Source: Campylobacteraceae bacterium (GTDB taxonomy: Bacteria > Campylobacterota > Campylobacteria > Campylobacterales > Sulfurovaceae). Taken from it: a DNA stretch of 64,000 nucleotides. Position numbers and translations under genes: made by a program. This document shows positions 59,684-64,000 of the stretch, in pieces. Each line of letters begins with the position of its first letter. Positions within the stretch are counted from its first letter, which is position 1. The DNA is taken from assembly GCA_027024155.1 (NCBI GenBank), contig JALVTE010000121.1, forward strand, positions 102,313 through 166,312. Direction: 5' to 3'. Under the pieces are notes generated by a model, which saw only the letters and a list, made by a program, of their open reading frames with translations, was not told where the DNA came from and did no database searches.

Positions 59684-60313
59684 ATGAAAATTTTACTATT
59701 AGAAGATGATACTATTTTAGCGGAGAGCTTGCAAGAGTTTTTAGAATTAGAGGGTTTTATTGTAGATGTAGCTAATTGTGCTGATGATGCTTATGATTTA
59801 ACTTATAAAAATGCATATGATTTTTATATTTTTGATATTAACTTATCTGGAGATAATGGTTTTGAAGTATTAAAAAATTTAAAAAATGCTAACGATACAA
59901 CACCTACAATCTATATTAGTGCATTAGTTGATATTGATTCTATTACAAAGGGTTTTAATATTGGAGCTTGTGATTATATAAAAAAGCCTTTTGACCCAAT
60001 GGAGTTAGTTGTTAGAATAAAACAACAGTATAAGAAAAATGATTTAATAAAATATAAAGATATAGTTTATAATCCAAATAGTAAAATAGTTACAAAAAAT
60101 GGCGAGGATATTCCTTTAGGTAATATCCAATTTGCAATATTTGATAAACTTATTAGAAATATAAATAGTGTAGTAGATAATGTAGAGTTGCTTGAATTGT
60201 TAGAAACATCTAATGGTAACTCTTTAAGAGTAACAATATCTAAATTAAAAAATAGACTTGATTTAGATATAAAAAATATTAGAGGTAGAGGCTATATTCT
60301 TGAAGAGGTATGA
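59684..60313 (+). CDS. OmpR-family response regulator
   Basis: LLLEDDTILAESL, phospho-Asp FIFDINLSGDNGFEVL, winged-helix C terminus (ISKLKNRLD..IRGRGYIL). Confidence 0.92.
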   Translation: MKILLLEDDTILAESLQEFLELEGFIVDVANCADDAYDLTYKNAYDFYIFDINLSGDNGFEVLKNLKNANDTTPTIYISALVDIDSITKGFNIGACDYIKKPFDPMELVVRIKQQYKKNDLIKYKDIVYNPNSKIVTKNGEDIPLGNIQFAIFDKLIRNINSVVDNVELLELLETSNGNSLRVTISKLKNRLDLDIKNIRGRGYILEEV

Positions 60314-61340
60314 GAGAGAAGCATTAATTAAAAATTTTCTTATATTTTTTTCTGTAGAATTATTTCTATTAAGCTTGCTTTACATAAAAGAGTATAGTCA
60401 AGAGATTCATAGTAATTTAGATAATATAAAAAACGAAATGAAGTTATGTAGTTTTGACTTAAATTGTCCTAAGTTTAATTTAGATTTTGTACCTAAAAAA
60501 AGTGGCATAAAGACTTATTATTTATATAAAGATAATAATTTAACTACATATTATCATGTACCAACAGTAAAAAGTTATCTTCTTAAAATAACTCTAAATA
60601 GAGATAAGTATTATGATATAAAATCTAAAATAAAGATTAAATTGTTTGAAAGATTTACAATATATACATTGTTAATGGCACTTTTGTCTTTTATATTTTC
60701 TCTTTACTCTCTATATCCACTTAAACGAGCATTGAAATTAAATGATGAATTTATAAAAGATATTTTACATGATATAAATACACCGATAAGTTCTATAGTT
60801 ATAAATTTTAAATTATTAAAAAAAGAGTTTGGACAAAATCGTAAAATAGATAGAGTGGAATCTAGTATAGATACAATAGTATATTTACAAAAGAATCTTC
60901 GAACATTTTTAGATAATTCAAAACTTCAGAAAGAGGAGCTTTGCATAAGAGATATTTTACTTGATAGAGTTGAACACTTTAAACATATTTATCCTAATTT
61001 AAATTTTTATATTGAATTAGAAGAGTGTAGTGTATTAACAAATAAAGAGGCATTTGTAAGAATAATAGATAATTTATTAAGTAATGCATCTAAATATAAT
61101 AAAGAGAATGGTAGAGTAGAAGTAGTTTTGAAAAATTGTACTATTAATATTAAAGATAGTGGTATAGGTATAGAGAATGTTAAAAATATCTTTAAAAGAT
61201 ATTACACAGAGAGTGAAAGAGGTATTGGTATAGGTATGCATATTGTGAAAAAACTTTGTGATGCTTTGGGAATAAAAATATCTATAAAGAGTAAGTTAAA
61301 TATAGGAACTAATGTTACACTTAAATTAAGTAATGTTTAG
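60300..61340 (+). CDS. Membrane sensor histidine kinase
   Basis: Two TMs, H-box HDINTPISS, N-box DNLLSNASKYN, G-box DSGIGIENV..GIGIGMHIVKKLC; overlaps the regulator. Confidence 0.92.
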   Translation: MKRYEREALIKNFLIFFSVELFLLSLLYIKEYSQEIHSNLDNIKNEMKLCSFDLNCPKFNLDFVPKKSGIKTYYLYKDNNLTTYYHVPTVKSYLLKITLNRDKYYDIKSKIKIKLFERFTIYTLLMALLSFIFSLYSLYPLKRALKLNDEFIKDILHDINTPISSIVINFKLLKKEFGQNRKIDRVESSIDTIVYLQKNLRTFLDNSKLQKEELCIRDILLDRVEHFKHIYPNLNFYIELEECSVLTNKEAFVRIIDNLLSNASKYNKENGRVEVVLKNCTINIKDSGIGIENVKNIFKRYYTESERGIGIGMHIVKKLCDALGIKISIKSKLNIGTNVTLKLSNV

Positions 61341-61364
61341 GTAATGCTTTTGTGGTATAATTTT
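61331..61364 (+). promoter_or_regulatory. Candidate promoter/operator, copy A
   Basis: TAATGTTTAGGTAATGCTTTTGTGGTATAATTTT; 29/34 identical to 62631-62664. Confidence 0.6.
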
Positions 61365-61416
61365 ATTAGATTTCTTGCAAGAGTCTATTCCTTATTCAGT
61401 TAATAAAGAGAGATTT

Positions 61417-61851
61417 ATGATAAAAAGAGTAATATTAATTTTAACAATATTTATATCTTTTGTAATGGCAGATAATTCGTTAGAACTTAAAATTGCACAA
61501 TTACAGACAGCTCCAAAAGATAAAAAATATATTATAATGAACCAAATAAAGCGCGAGCTTGCTAATATGAATGTAGAACAGAGAAGTAGAGCATTAAATC
61601 AGCTAAAAGCTACTATCCATACTGCTGAAAATGGTATGCATAAACATAATAACTCTACACATTTAAAAACAAGAGAGCATATTCAAGAGCATTTAAAGCA
61701 TAATGAAACACACCTTTTAAACAAACACCAACATTCAAAATTTGATGAAGTGAAGAAGTCTCAAGAGCATCATCATAAAGATAGTCAAGATAGCCAACAT
61801 TCTCATAATACACACCATACACATCATAAAAAAGGTTCACATGAGAAATAG
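61417..61851 (+). CDS. Exported histidine-rich protein
   Basis: Signal peptide MIKRVILILTIFISFVMA then His-rich C terminus (QEHHHKDSQDSQHSHNTHHTHHKKGSHEK). Confidence 0.8.
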   Translation: MIKRVILILTIFISFVMADNSLELKIAQLQTAPKDKKYIIMNQIKRELANMNVEQRSRALNQLKATIHTAENGMHKHNNSTHLKTREHIQEHLKHNETHLLNKHQHSKFDEVKKSQEHHHKDSQDSQHSHNTHHTHHKKGSHEK

Positions 61852-62602
61852 CACTATCTTAAAGTTATTATTAATGATACTCTTTTGTGTTAATATTGAA
61901 GCAAAAATCTTTTTAGATAACGATTTAGATGGTGTTGCTAACAAAGATGATAAATGTCCAAACTCTAAAATTACTGATATTGTAGATAAATATGGTTGTG
62001 CAGTTAGTAAAGTTGTTTTTAAAGAAGATAAACATTTAGATATTAGTATTGGAATAAGCAGAGACAAAAGTTCTGGAAATTGGCAAAATAGTCAATATTT
62101 ATCGTTAAGTTACTATTATGGTAATTCAAATTTTTCAATAACTGCTTCTAAATATAGTAGTAATAATTCAAATGATTTAACGGTTGCTTACTATTACTAT
62201 ATAAATAATCCTAAATATTGTATTAGTTTGGGTGCTGGAACTTATATACCTTTTGACTCTAATGACAAAAATGACTATTTTTTAAGTGCAAAGTATACAT
62301 ACTATTTTTATAATAGTGTATTGAGCGCAGAATATAAGCATATATTTTCAAGAGATGTTGGTACAAAAGATTCAAATTCTTTAACAGTGGAGTATGGTTA
62401 TTTAATAAATAAAAAACTATTTATTGCTTTATCTTATAGTTTAGAAAATTCAATATATGAAAATAAAAATAATATACAGACTATAGATTTTTATACAAAT
62501 TATCACTTTAATAAAAATTGGTATATTTCGGGAGATTTACAAAAAAATGTAAGTTCATCTTCTGATATATCATATACTGTCTCTTTAGGTTACTATTTCT
62601 AA
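61841..62602 (+). CDS. Outer-membrane beta-barrel-like protein with TSP3-like Ca-binding motif
   Basis: Signal peptide, LDNDLDGVANKDDKCPNSK, then alternating Tyr/Ser/Asn-rich strands ending in aromatic ...SLGYYF. Confidence 0.7.
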   Translation: MRNSTILKLLLMILFCVNIEAKIFLDNDLDGVANKDDKCPNSKITDIVDKYGCAVSKVVFKEDKHLDISIGISRDKSSGNWQNSQYLSLSYYYGNSNFSITASKYSSNNSNDLTVAYYYYINNPKYCISLGAGTYIPFDSNDKNDYFLSAKYTYYFYNSVLSAEYKHIFSRDVGTKDSNSLTVEYGYLINKKLFIALSYSLENSIYENKNNIQTIDFYTNYHFNKNWYISGDLQKNVSSSSDISYTVSLGYYF

Positions 62603-62630
62603 TTTTATTCTTACTTCCATTAATAGGAGG

Positions 62631-62664
62631 TAATGTTCAGGTAATACTTTTTTTGTATAATTAT
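62631..62664 (+). promoter_or_regulatory. Candidate promoter/operator, copy B
   Basis: TAATGTTCAGGTAATACTTTTTTTGTATAATTAT; TATAAT 33 nt upstream of the lipoprotein ATG. Confidence 0.6.
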
Positions 62665-62694
62665 CCTATAATAAAATTTTAGGAGTATACAGAA

Positions 62695-64000
62695 ATGAAA
62701 TTATCATTAAAAAGTGTAATTTATTCGGCTATTGCAGCATCTTTCTTAGTAGGATGTGGTGGAGGCGGTCCTACTGCTAGTAGCAATACAAACGGGGCAC
62801 CTTCAGCAAGTAACAAAACTACAACAGTACAAGCTTCAGATGCATATGTTGTATCTTTAATAACACCAGCTACATTAAAGGTGGATGGAAAAGAGTACAA
62901 CACTACAAAAGTTGGCTTAAATGGAGAGGTAATATTTATCGTACCTGACGATTTAAATTTAACAAATGCAGAGGTACATATACCAGCAGACGCTATTGTA
63001 GATGCTGATGGAGATGGTAAACTTTCTGCTAAAGACCAAATTATTAGAATGTCTTTAAGCACAAAAGGTGAGGGAACAGTTGCAAACCCTTTAGCAACAG
63101 TAGCATTAACTAAAAAAGATATTCAAGCTTATAGTAAATTTAAAGATTTTGACCCTGTTAAAGCTAAAGAAGAGTTAATTAATAATCCAGATAATGACCA
63201 ATTAAAAGCATTAGTTGCAGTAAATGATGCTATCGCTTCATTAATAAAAGAGGCGAATACAACAAATCCAAATGCAGTATTAAAAGATATTGATTTAAAT
63301 AGAGTTAAAGAGATTGTAGAGAGTAATAGCTCTGTTGTTGATGTTACAGCATTAACAGTTGATACTATCCAAAATGCGGCAGGTAAAGCTGGTATTGATG
63401 ATAGTAAAATTACAGATAAAACAGAAGAGATTTTAAATGTTATACGCAGTGTACATAATGCAATCAAAAACGGTAAAATAAAATCTCATAAAGATGGTTT
63501 AAAAGCAGTATTAGCTGTTTCAGATGCTGATGTAAATGCGAGTGTAGTAAATAGAGCTATAGAAGATGGTAACATTACAGATATAGAGACACACATTAGA
63601 GAAGACGAAAGAGTTAGAAGACATAGAGGTCACAGAGATGACAATGCAACTCATAATTCTGGAGACAATGGTAACCATGACGGAATGAATGATGACAACA
63701 ATGAAACTCACAATCCAGGACATGACCAAGATGATGACAATGCAACTCATAACCCAGGACACAATGGTAACCATGATGGAATGAATGATGACAACAATGA
63801 AACTCACAATCCAGGACATGACCAAGATGATGACAATGCAACTCATAACCCAGGACACAATGGTAACCATGACGGAATGAATGATGACAACAATGAAACT
63901 CACAATCCAGGACATGACCAAGATGATGACAATGCAACTCATAACCCAGGACACAATGGTAACCATGATGGAATGAATGATGACAACAATGAAACTCACA
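62695..64000 (+). CDS. Lipoprotein with EF-hand-like loop and His/Asp/Asn-rich tandem repeats (truncated by window end)
   Basis: Continuous frame from ATG 62695; lipobox FLVGC; DADGDGKLSAKD; repeats DDDNATHNPGHNGNHDGMNDDNNETHNPGHDQ. Confidence 0.85.
   Translation, partial: MKLSLKSVIYSAIAASFLVGCGGGGPTASSNTNGAPSASNKTTTVQASDAYVVSLITPATLKVDGKEYNTTKVGLNGEVIFIVPDDLNLTNAEVHIPADAIVDADGDGKLSAKDQIIRMSLSTKGEGTVANPLATVALTKKDIQAYSKFKDFDPVKAKEELINNPDNDQLKALVAVNDAIASLIKEANTTNPNAVLKDIDLNRVKEIVESNSSVVDVTALTVDTIQNAAGKAGIDDSKITDKTEEILNVIRSVHNAIKNGKIKSHKDGLKAVLAVSDADVNASVVNRAIEDGNITDIETHIREDERVRRHRGHRDDNATHNSGDNGNHDGMNDDNNETHNPGHDQDDDNATHNPGHNGNHDGMNDDNNETHNPGHDQDDDNATHNPGHNGNHDGMNDDNNETHNPGHDQDDDNATHNPGHNGNHDGMNDDNNETH
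63637..64000. repeat. Tandem 96-bp coding repeat, about 3.8 copies to window end
   Basis: GATGACAATGCAACTCAT recurs at 63637, 63733, 63829, 63925. Confidence 0.95.

Follow-up and report, generated by a model that had tools for sequence, protein, structure and literature searches.

In Helicobacter pylori, the two-component pair CrdRS (HP1365-HP1364) accompanies the copper resistance determinant CrdA, and a 21-nt sequence at crdA is reported as the binding site of CrdR (PMC9927306, PMC9449129). In Campylobacter jejuni, the OmpR-like pair DccRS activates a small set of periplasmic and membrane proteins in response to an unknown signal (PMC9449129). The module described here links a response regulator (RR) and a sensor histidine kinase (HK) to a small exported protein (SMALL) and a TSP3-tagged outer-membrane barrel. 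By description, it shares the OmpR-like type of pair with DccRS, with which it is not known to have accessory genes in common, and resembles CrdRS in its phylum, its OmpR-type pair and a copper-linked output, as relatives of the module appear to control YtkA plus CusCBA-type genes. The CrdRS system is not known to include a SMALL or a TSP3 barrel.

As with CusRS, CzcRS and CopRS, an OmpR-type regulator adjoins CusCBA or CopAB in some relatives of the module, although the module scores far below the cut-offs of these families and differs in the CX5C loop of its kinase, its direct-repeat operator and its new accessory proteins. ZraP-ZraSR and CpxP-CpxAR also have a small exported protein (metal-binding in the case of ZraP) coded beside, and regulated by, a two-component pair; SMALL, however, matches neither family, and the present pair is coupled to an outer-membrane barrel. 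In Pseudomonas, the outer-membrane barrel gene of the PhoPQ-OprH system lies within the operon of an OmpR-type pair, whereas the barrel found here is 12-stranded and TSP3-tagged, SMALL is additional and Mg2+ is not indicated. By analogy, the module may work like a CrdRS- or CusRS-type metal response carrying a CpxP/OprH-like accessory layer. A literature search found no description of the module, in keeping with the sequence-only reading, which had called the envelope system uncharacterised; nor did it find any of SMALL and the TSP3 barrel as families, and no match to the module could be assigned in a published Nitratiruptor Cu/Cd transcriptome.

Organisation of the locus and its exported proteins

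The window, i.e., the whole stretch of 64,000 nucleotides that was analysed, sits on contig C121 of a 2.15-Mb genome in 123 contigs. The overlapping regulator and kinase, the His-rich exported protein, the TSP3/barrel protein and the lipoprotein with an EF-like loop that had been read from the sequence are all present (Table 1), the RR and HK genes overlapping by 14 bp. Since both Response_reg and Trans_reg_C were matched, RR was assigned to the OmpR type. HK has two transmembrane helices enclosing a periplasmic loop of approximately 80 aa, which carries the CX5C motif. The genome contains several similarly styled compact RR-HK pairs, including a paralogous one at L011:4217-7480 (G000:C120), located near ftsZ and flanked by a thioredoxin-type protein on one side and two small c-type cytochromes on the other.

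Table 1. Features of the locus, in window coordinates unless otherwise indicated.
Feature	Position	Strand	Description
Thioredoxin gene	starts 59128		First in the listed gene order, 5' of the RR gene
RR, OmpR/PhoB-type response regulator, 209 aa	59684..60313	+	Response_reg (E 4e-24), Trans_reg_C (E 8e-6)
HK, sensor histidine kinase, 346 aa	60300..61340	+	TTG start; HisKA, HATPase_c
HK cysteine codons	60447-60449 (C50), 60465-60467 (C56)		CX5C of the periplasmic loop
Operator/promoter 1, 32 bp	61330..61361	+	Overlaps the 3' end of the HK gene; 5' of SMALL-TSP3 barrel
SMALL, exported, about 144 aa	61417..61851	+	Helical core of ~55 aa and His-rich tail (26%); profiles A2/A4
TSP3 motif and 12-stranded outer-membrane barrel, 253 aa	61841..62602	+	Profile A3; AF2 pLDDT 88; Foldseek
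Operator/promoter 2, 32 bp	62630..62661	+	5' of the lipoprotein gene
Lipoprotein	62695..64000, runs on past the window	+	EF-like loop; His/Asp/Asn-rich 32-aa tandem repeats
EF-like loop DADGDGKLSAKD	63001-63036		Within the lipoprotein
His-rich beta-propeller lipoprotein, 3' of the window	L009:7532-8872 = G000:C121:167531-168871		Cytochrom_D1 and YVTN-type matches

The start of SMALL is likely the ATG at 61417, because the -10 element of operator 1 occupies 61356-61361. The protein is helical in its structure model and conserved in its core (IDxQIxxIxxAPxxERxxLMNxxKxxLxxMNxxxRxxAIxxL), the sequence of the tail being unconserved. Among 67 tails compared, that of the window has the highest His content; others are Met/Gln-rich (families f4 and f16), Pro-rich (genus g3) or Glu/Asn/Gln-rich (vent clade), and His plus Met reach at least 10% in 32 of the 67. 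His- or Met-rich tails occur in several families, and about half of the tails are neither. As orthologue tails differ in composition, the His-richness is a local variant of a tail that is hypervariable and disordered and of which the window holds the extreme, and on these statistics it was rejected as the defining feature of SMALL. The His-rich character emphasised in the sequence-only reading is thus not conserved among the orthologues.

No significant Pfam family was found for the 38 SMALL members scanned, and no significant PDB relative emerged from a profile search, short protein A matches to one helix having been set aside. Kinship with Spy, CpxP or ZraP was rejected, as the profile scan, the PDB profile search and the fold search gave nothing significant; LTXXQ (CpxP/Spy) is absent among the families listed for the 38 members, and there was no fold match either.

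The barrel model comprises 12 long strands, and its Foldseek matches include KdgM (TM 0.86) and NanC (TM 0.75, both by target length). The modelled protein therefore has the 12-stranded fold of KdgM/NanC-type porins, and may be a pore. In the window protein a single DxDxDG repeat precedes the barrel; its aspartates, together with two following cysteines, are invariant in the barrel alignment, and the conserved motif may bind Ca2+. Of 18 members compared with TSP_3 of Pfam, 17 give a match with E no higher than 1 (best 1e-4); the score of the window protein is 12.4 against a cut-off of 25.

The lipoprotein gene (lipobox LVGCGGGG) extends to about G000:C121:166749, its His/Asp/Asn repeats running on beyond the window and into an assembly gap, which the gene crosses. 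The 32-aa repeat (96 bp in DNA; 63630-64000 and its continuation in L009) is very uniform and is broken by an N run. The cassette, delimited at first by the window, in fact goes past position 64000 to the propeller lipoprotein under the same promoter element. This protein shows weak matches to cytochrome D1 and lactonase-type NosZ, bears the third operator and shows strong homology (E about 1e-177) to lipoproteins of the regulon in other clades.

Conservation of the module and its predicted operator

The HK query retrieved 23 Campylobacterota loci from named genomes, whose neighbourhoods were set against that of the window; most of the closest named HK relatives belong to Sulfurovum or to other Campylobacterota MAGs. 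RR adjoins HK in 23/23, a TSP3 barrel is found downstream at every locus except one, and SMALL is present in nearly all. Across 150 family genomes, 65 of the 87 SMALL genes are followed directly 3' by a TSP3 protein on the same strand, a pairing beyond what chance would give. SMALL was detected in 38 of 298 phylum genomes, all 38 from the window's order, and full-length TSP3 barrels were found throughout this order. The four genes stand together, among the loci read, in f1, f4, f6, f7, f14, f15, f16 and f17, so that the module spans eight or more families of this order of Campylobacterota; f9 and f20 have short TSP3 proteins or lipoproteins, and f18 has SMALL plus TSP3 without HK. The linkage anticipated from the window alone is thus conserved. 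Two gene orders exist, RR-HK-SMALL-TSP3 and SMALL-TSP3-RR-HK, and this shuffling with the linkage kept argues that the module is a functional unit. Some lineages have lost the barrel while keeping the TSP3 part. At L177 and L189-L194 (G016, G053, G038, G046, G035, G026, G085), a TSP3 protein of 56-82 aa stands alone after SMALL; in the loci of this barrel-less type that were read, HK lacks the Cys pair.

The segments upstream of SMALL and the lipoprotein have in common a 32-bp element, GTAAT-N6-GTAAT-N10-TATAAT, which combines an 11-bp direct repeat with a -10 box. Its two copies in the window compare with 0.00 in 100 dinucleotide shuffles. Perfect copies number three in the whole 2.15-Mb genome, where no site differs by a single mismatch; the third lies beyond the window, 29 bp 5' of the gene for the propeller lipoprotein. 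At two mismatches the count amounts to noise (23 sites in total vs 13 for the reversed pattern), and a looser form (BTAAY, TAWAAT) adds mostly TTAA-rich sites in this genome. In the 150 family genomes, perfect sites number 39 and control sites 3; operator-like sites in module-less genomes may, for some genes, belong to other regulators. A position weight matrix built from 18 sites gave 33 matches in 1.23 Mb of fetched loci and none when reversed, a count that includes its own building sites and is thus partly circular; the matches lie mostly 8-41 bp 5' of start codons, chiefly those of SMALL and lipoproteins. Pairs of BTAAY were counted independently of the matrix, although a few of the loci had been fetched by motif: the 11-bp spacing occurs upstream of 35 of 90 non-redundant SMALL genes (1.4 in shuffles; other lags at most 4) and of 23 of 34 lipoprotein genes (1.3 expected). 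As many as four tandem 11-bp repeats lie ahead of the -10 box in f4 loci, and in the vent clade, where SMALL overlaps the HK gene and has no site of its own, the neighbouring lipoprotein often bears the operator.

An 11-bp repeat combined with a -10 box is what a site for an activator of the OmpR/PhoB type should look like, and RR would bind to it. Because the operator is shared, the pair very probably controls SMALL, the barrel and the lipoprotein effectors. The proposal that the kinase governs its own His-rich effectors is thereby supported as regards control, and not as regards His-richness as their defining trait. Autoregulation of RR through the operator was rejected as weak, with the 11-bp pair in 4 of 59 RR upstream segments (1.0 expected). 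Operator-like sites or 11-bp repeats before DUF2202 (PF09968) proteins, or linkage of these proteins to the module, were observed at L183, L200, L204 and L227; they are possible further regulon members.

The sensor kinase and copper genes in relatives

The two cysteines seen in the periplasmic segment of the kinase correspond to a conserved CX5C: 18 orthologues all retain C50 and C56, and over 86 loci, some of them fetched twice, the loop has CX5C in 79, no Cys in 7 and a single Cys in none. The pair is therefore conserved and lost only as a pair. In the kinase tree, the window HK and the copper-linked loci fall in one clade (support 0.994), outside which lie the included paralogous kinases of its own genome and of relatives.

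Copper-handling genes adjoin the module in several of these relatives. L202 is ordered HK-oxidase lipoprotein-SMALL-TSP3 barrel-CopA-CopB, and four 11-bp repeats lie where the HK gene ends (CopA, TIGR01480, 800 bits vs a cut-off of 479; CopB, PF05275, 251 bits). Divergent operators precede YtkA and CusCBA at L059; YtkA-CusC-CusB lie 3' of HK at L094-L096, and an operator precedes a CueO-like oxidase at L096; CusA/CzcA, over its cut-off, is immediately 5' of SMALL in two f16 genomes (L156, L158); and two NosL genes follow SMALL at L184. CopA matches occur in 4 of 41 family genomes and strong YtkA matches in 3 of 41, so that, judging by the frequencies of these two genes, the adjacencies are unlikely to be due to chance. 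The window genome has no CopA or YtkA match, and at most module loci a copper gene is absent nearby.

By family criteria, RR and HK are an OmpR/PhoB-type pair, with a receiver and Trans_reg_C, HisKA and HATPase, and a direct-repeat operator near -35. The best NCBIfam match of RR is TIGR01387 (CusR/CzcR), at 101.3 bits against a cut-off of 279.2, and HK reaches 49.4 bits with TIGR01386 (CusS/CzcS; cut-off 292.55). Linkage to metal genes, another mark of heavy-metal pairs, was found at L059, L094-L096, L156, L158 and L202, and not at the window genome's own locus. Membership of ZraPSR was rejected, as RR carries Trans_reg_C, unlike the NtrC-type ZraR, and SMALL has no significant Pfam match. On the sequence criteria tested, the system falls outside the named heavy-metal, ZraP and CpxP families.

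In Sulfurovum, at L050:2911-5223, L066:3534-5216 and approximately 30 other loci, the lipoproteins linked to the module contain as many as 9 CxxCH motifs together with matches to MtrC/MtrF domain II/IV (PF22113), and are possible extracellular electron transfer proteins.

Interpretation of the system and its significance

The reading that we favour, with moderate confidence, is that of a Campylobacterota OmpR-type system responsive to copper or a similar soft metal, possibly to envelope redox state, with a dedicated exported regulon. A metal cue is supported by the copper-handling genes beside same-clade kinases of relatives, and copper or a similar soft metal is the cue we infer; of the cation detection suggested earlier, the metal part is retained, and Ca2+ through the EF-like loop is not. 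The paired cysteines in the short periplasmic loop of HK would bind metal or form a redox-switchable disulfide, and phosphorylated RR would then bind 11-bp-spaced [CGT]TAA[CT] repeats, which replace the -35 box, and activate its target promoters. Judging by the operators, the targets would be SMALL and the TSP3 barrel, surface lipoproteins and, depending on lineage, copper-handling proteins; in the window genome the strict operator would define three promoters, all at this locus, the last being that of the propeller lipoprotein. SMALL and the barrel may serve to buffer the signal or to pass it on: SMALL, which has a disordered tail, most likely acts in the periplasm as a metal buffer, a feedback element on HK, or both, and the 12-stranded barrel would be the outer-membrane component. 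Against copper stand the several kinases with neither cysteine, the scores of RR and HK below the curated Cu/Ag/Zn family cut-offs, the majority of module loci with no copper gene close by, the lack of a CopA or YtkA match in the window genome, and the half or so of the tails that are not rich in His or Met.

Credible, if unlikely, is a system for envelope or outer-membrane stress, in which SMALL would be a periplasmic repressor of HK, the barrel a monitored or adjusted outer-membrane protein, and the copper genes later recruits. The core conserved whatever the neighbours is indeed a kinase, a periplasmic protein and an outer-membrane protein, the last of them porin-like, and where the barrel has been lost a short TSP3 protein or lipoprotein is left, so that SMALL and TSP3 go with HK. 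SMALL, however, has no significant match to LTXXQ/CpxP/Spy or another Pfam family, and in several lineages the metal genes either have the operator in front of them or sit within the same transcription unit.

We regard as rather improbable a regulator of electron transfer whose Cys pair would sense periplasmic redox, with multiheme MtrC/F-like lipoproteins, oxidases and the cytochrome-D1-like propeller as output. The joint loss of the cysteines would fit it, and the lipoprotein linked to the module in Sulfurovum relatives from deep vents is an MtrC/F-like cytochrome with 9 hemes, a linkage that recurs at many Sulfurovum loci, several of these multi-CxxCH lipoproteins standing behind the 11-bp operator, and that could point to redox rather than metal. 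CopA-CopB, YtkA, CusCBA and NosL, on the other hand, handle copper, not respiration, and none of the three operators of the window genome serves a heme protein. Similarly doubtful is an outer-to-inner-membrane relay, in which the SMALL tail, extended and of variable length, would span the periplasm and couple the state or metal loading of the TSP3 porin to the Cys-pair HK; if true, this way of sensing metal or the surface would be architecturally new.

Sensing and buffering of Ca2+ or another divalent cation, suggested by the invariant DxDxDG motif and the EF-like loop, is very improbable, as the EF-hand match is not significant (E 0.38), lipoprotein relatives of high similarity are confined to one genus and no Ca-linked neighbours were found; an EF-hand route was accordingly rejected.

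The comparison separates what is conserved, the module and its operator, from a local exaggeration, the His-rich tail. It describes an order-wide, previously undescribed envelope signalling module in abundant bacteria of hydrothermal vents and sediments, in which a sensor with a conserved Cys pair, two protein families so far uncharacterised and a predicted operator come together. The regulon is thereby open to direct testing, and the module suggests a way in which Campylobacterota may detect metals at their surface.
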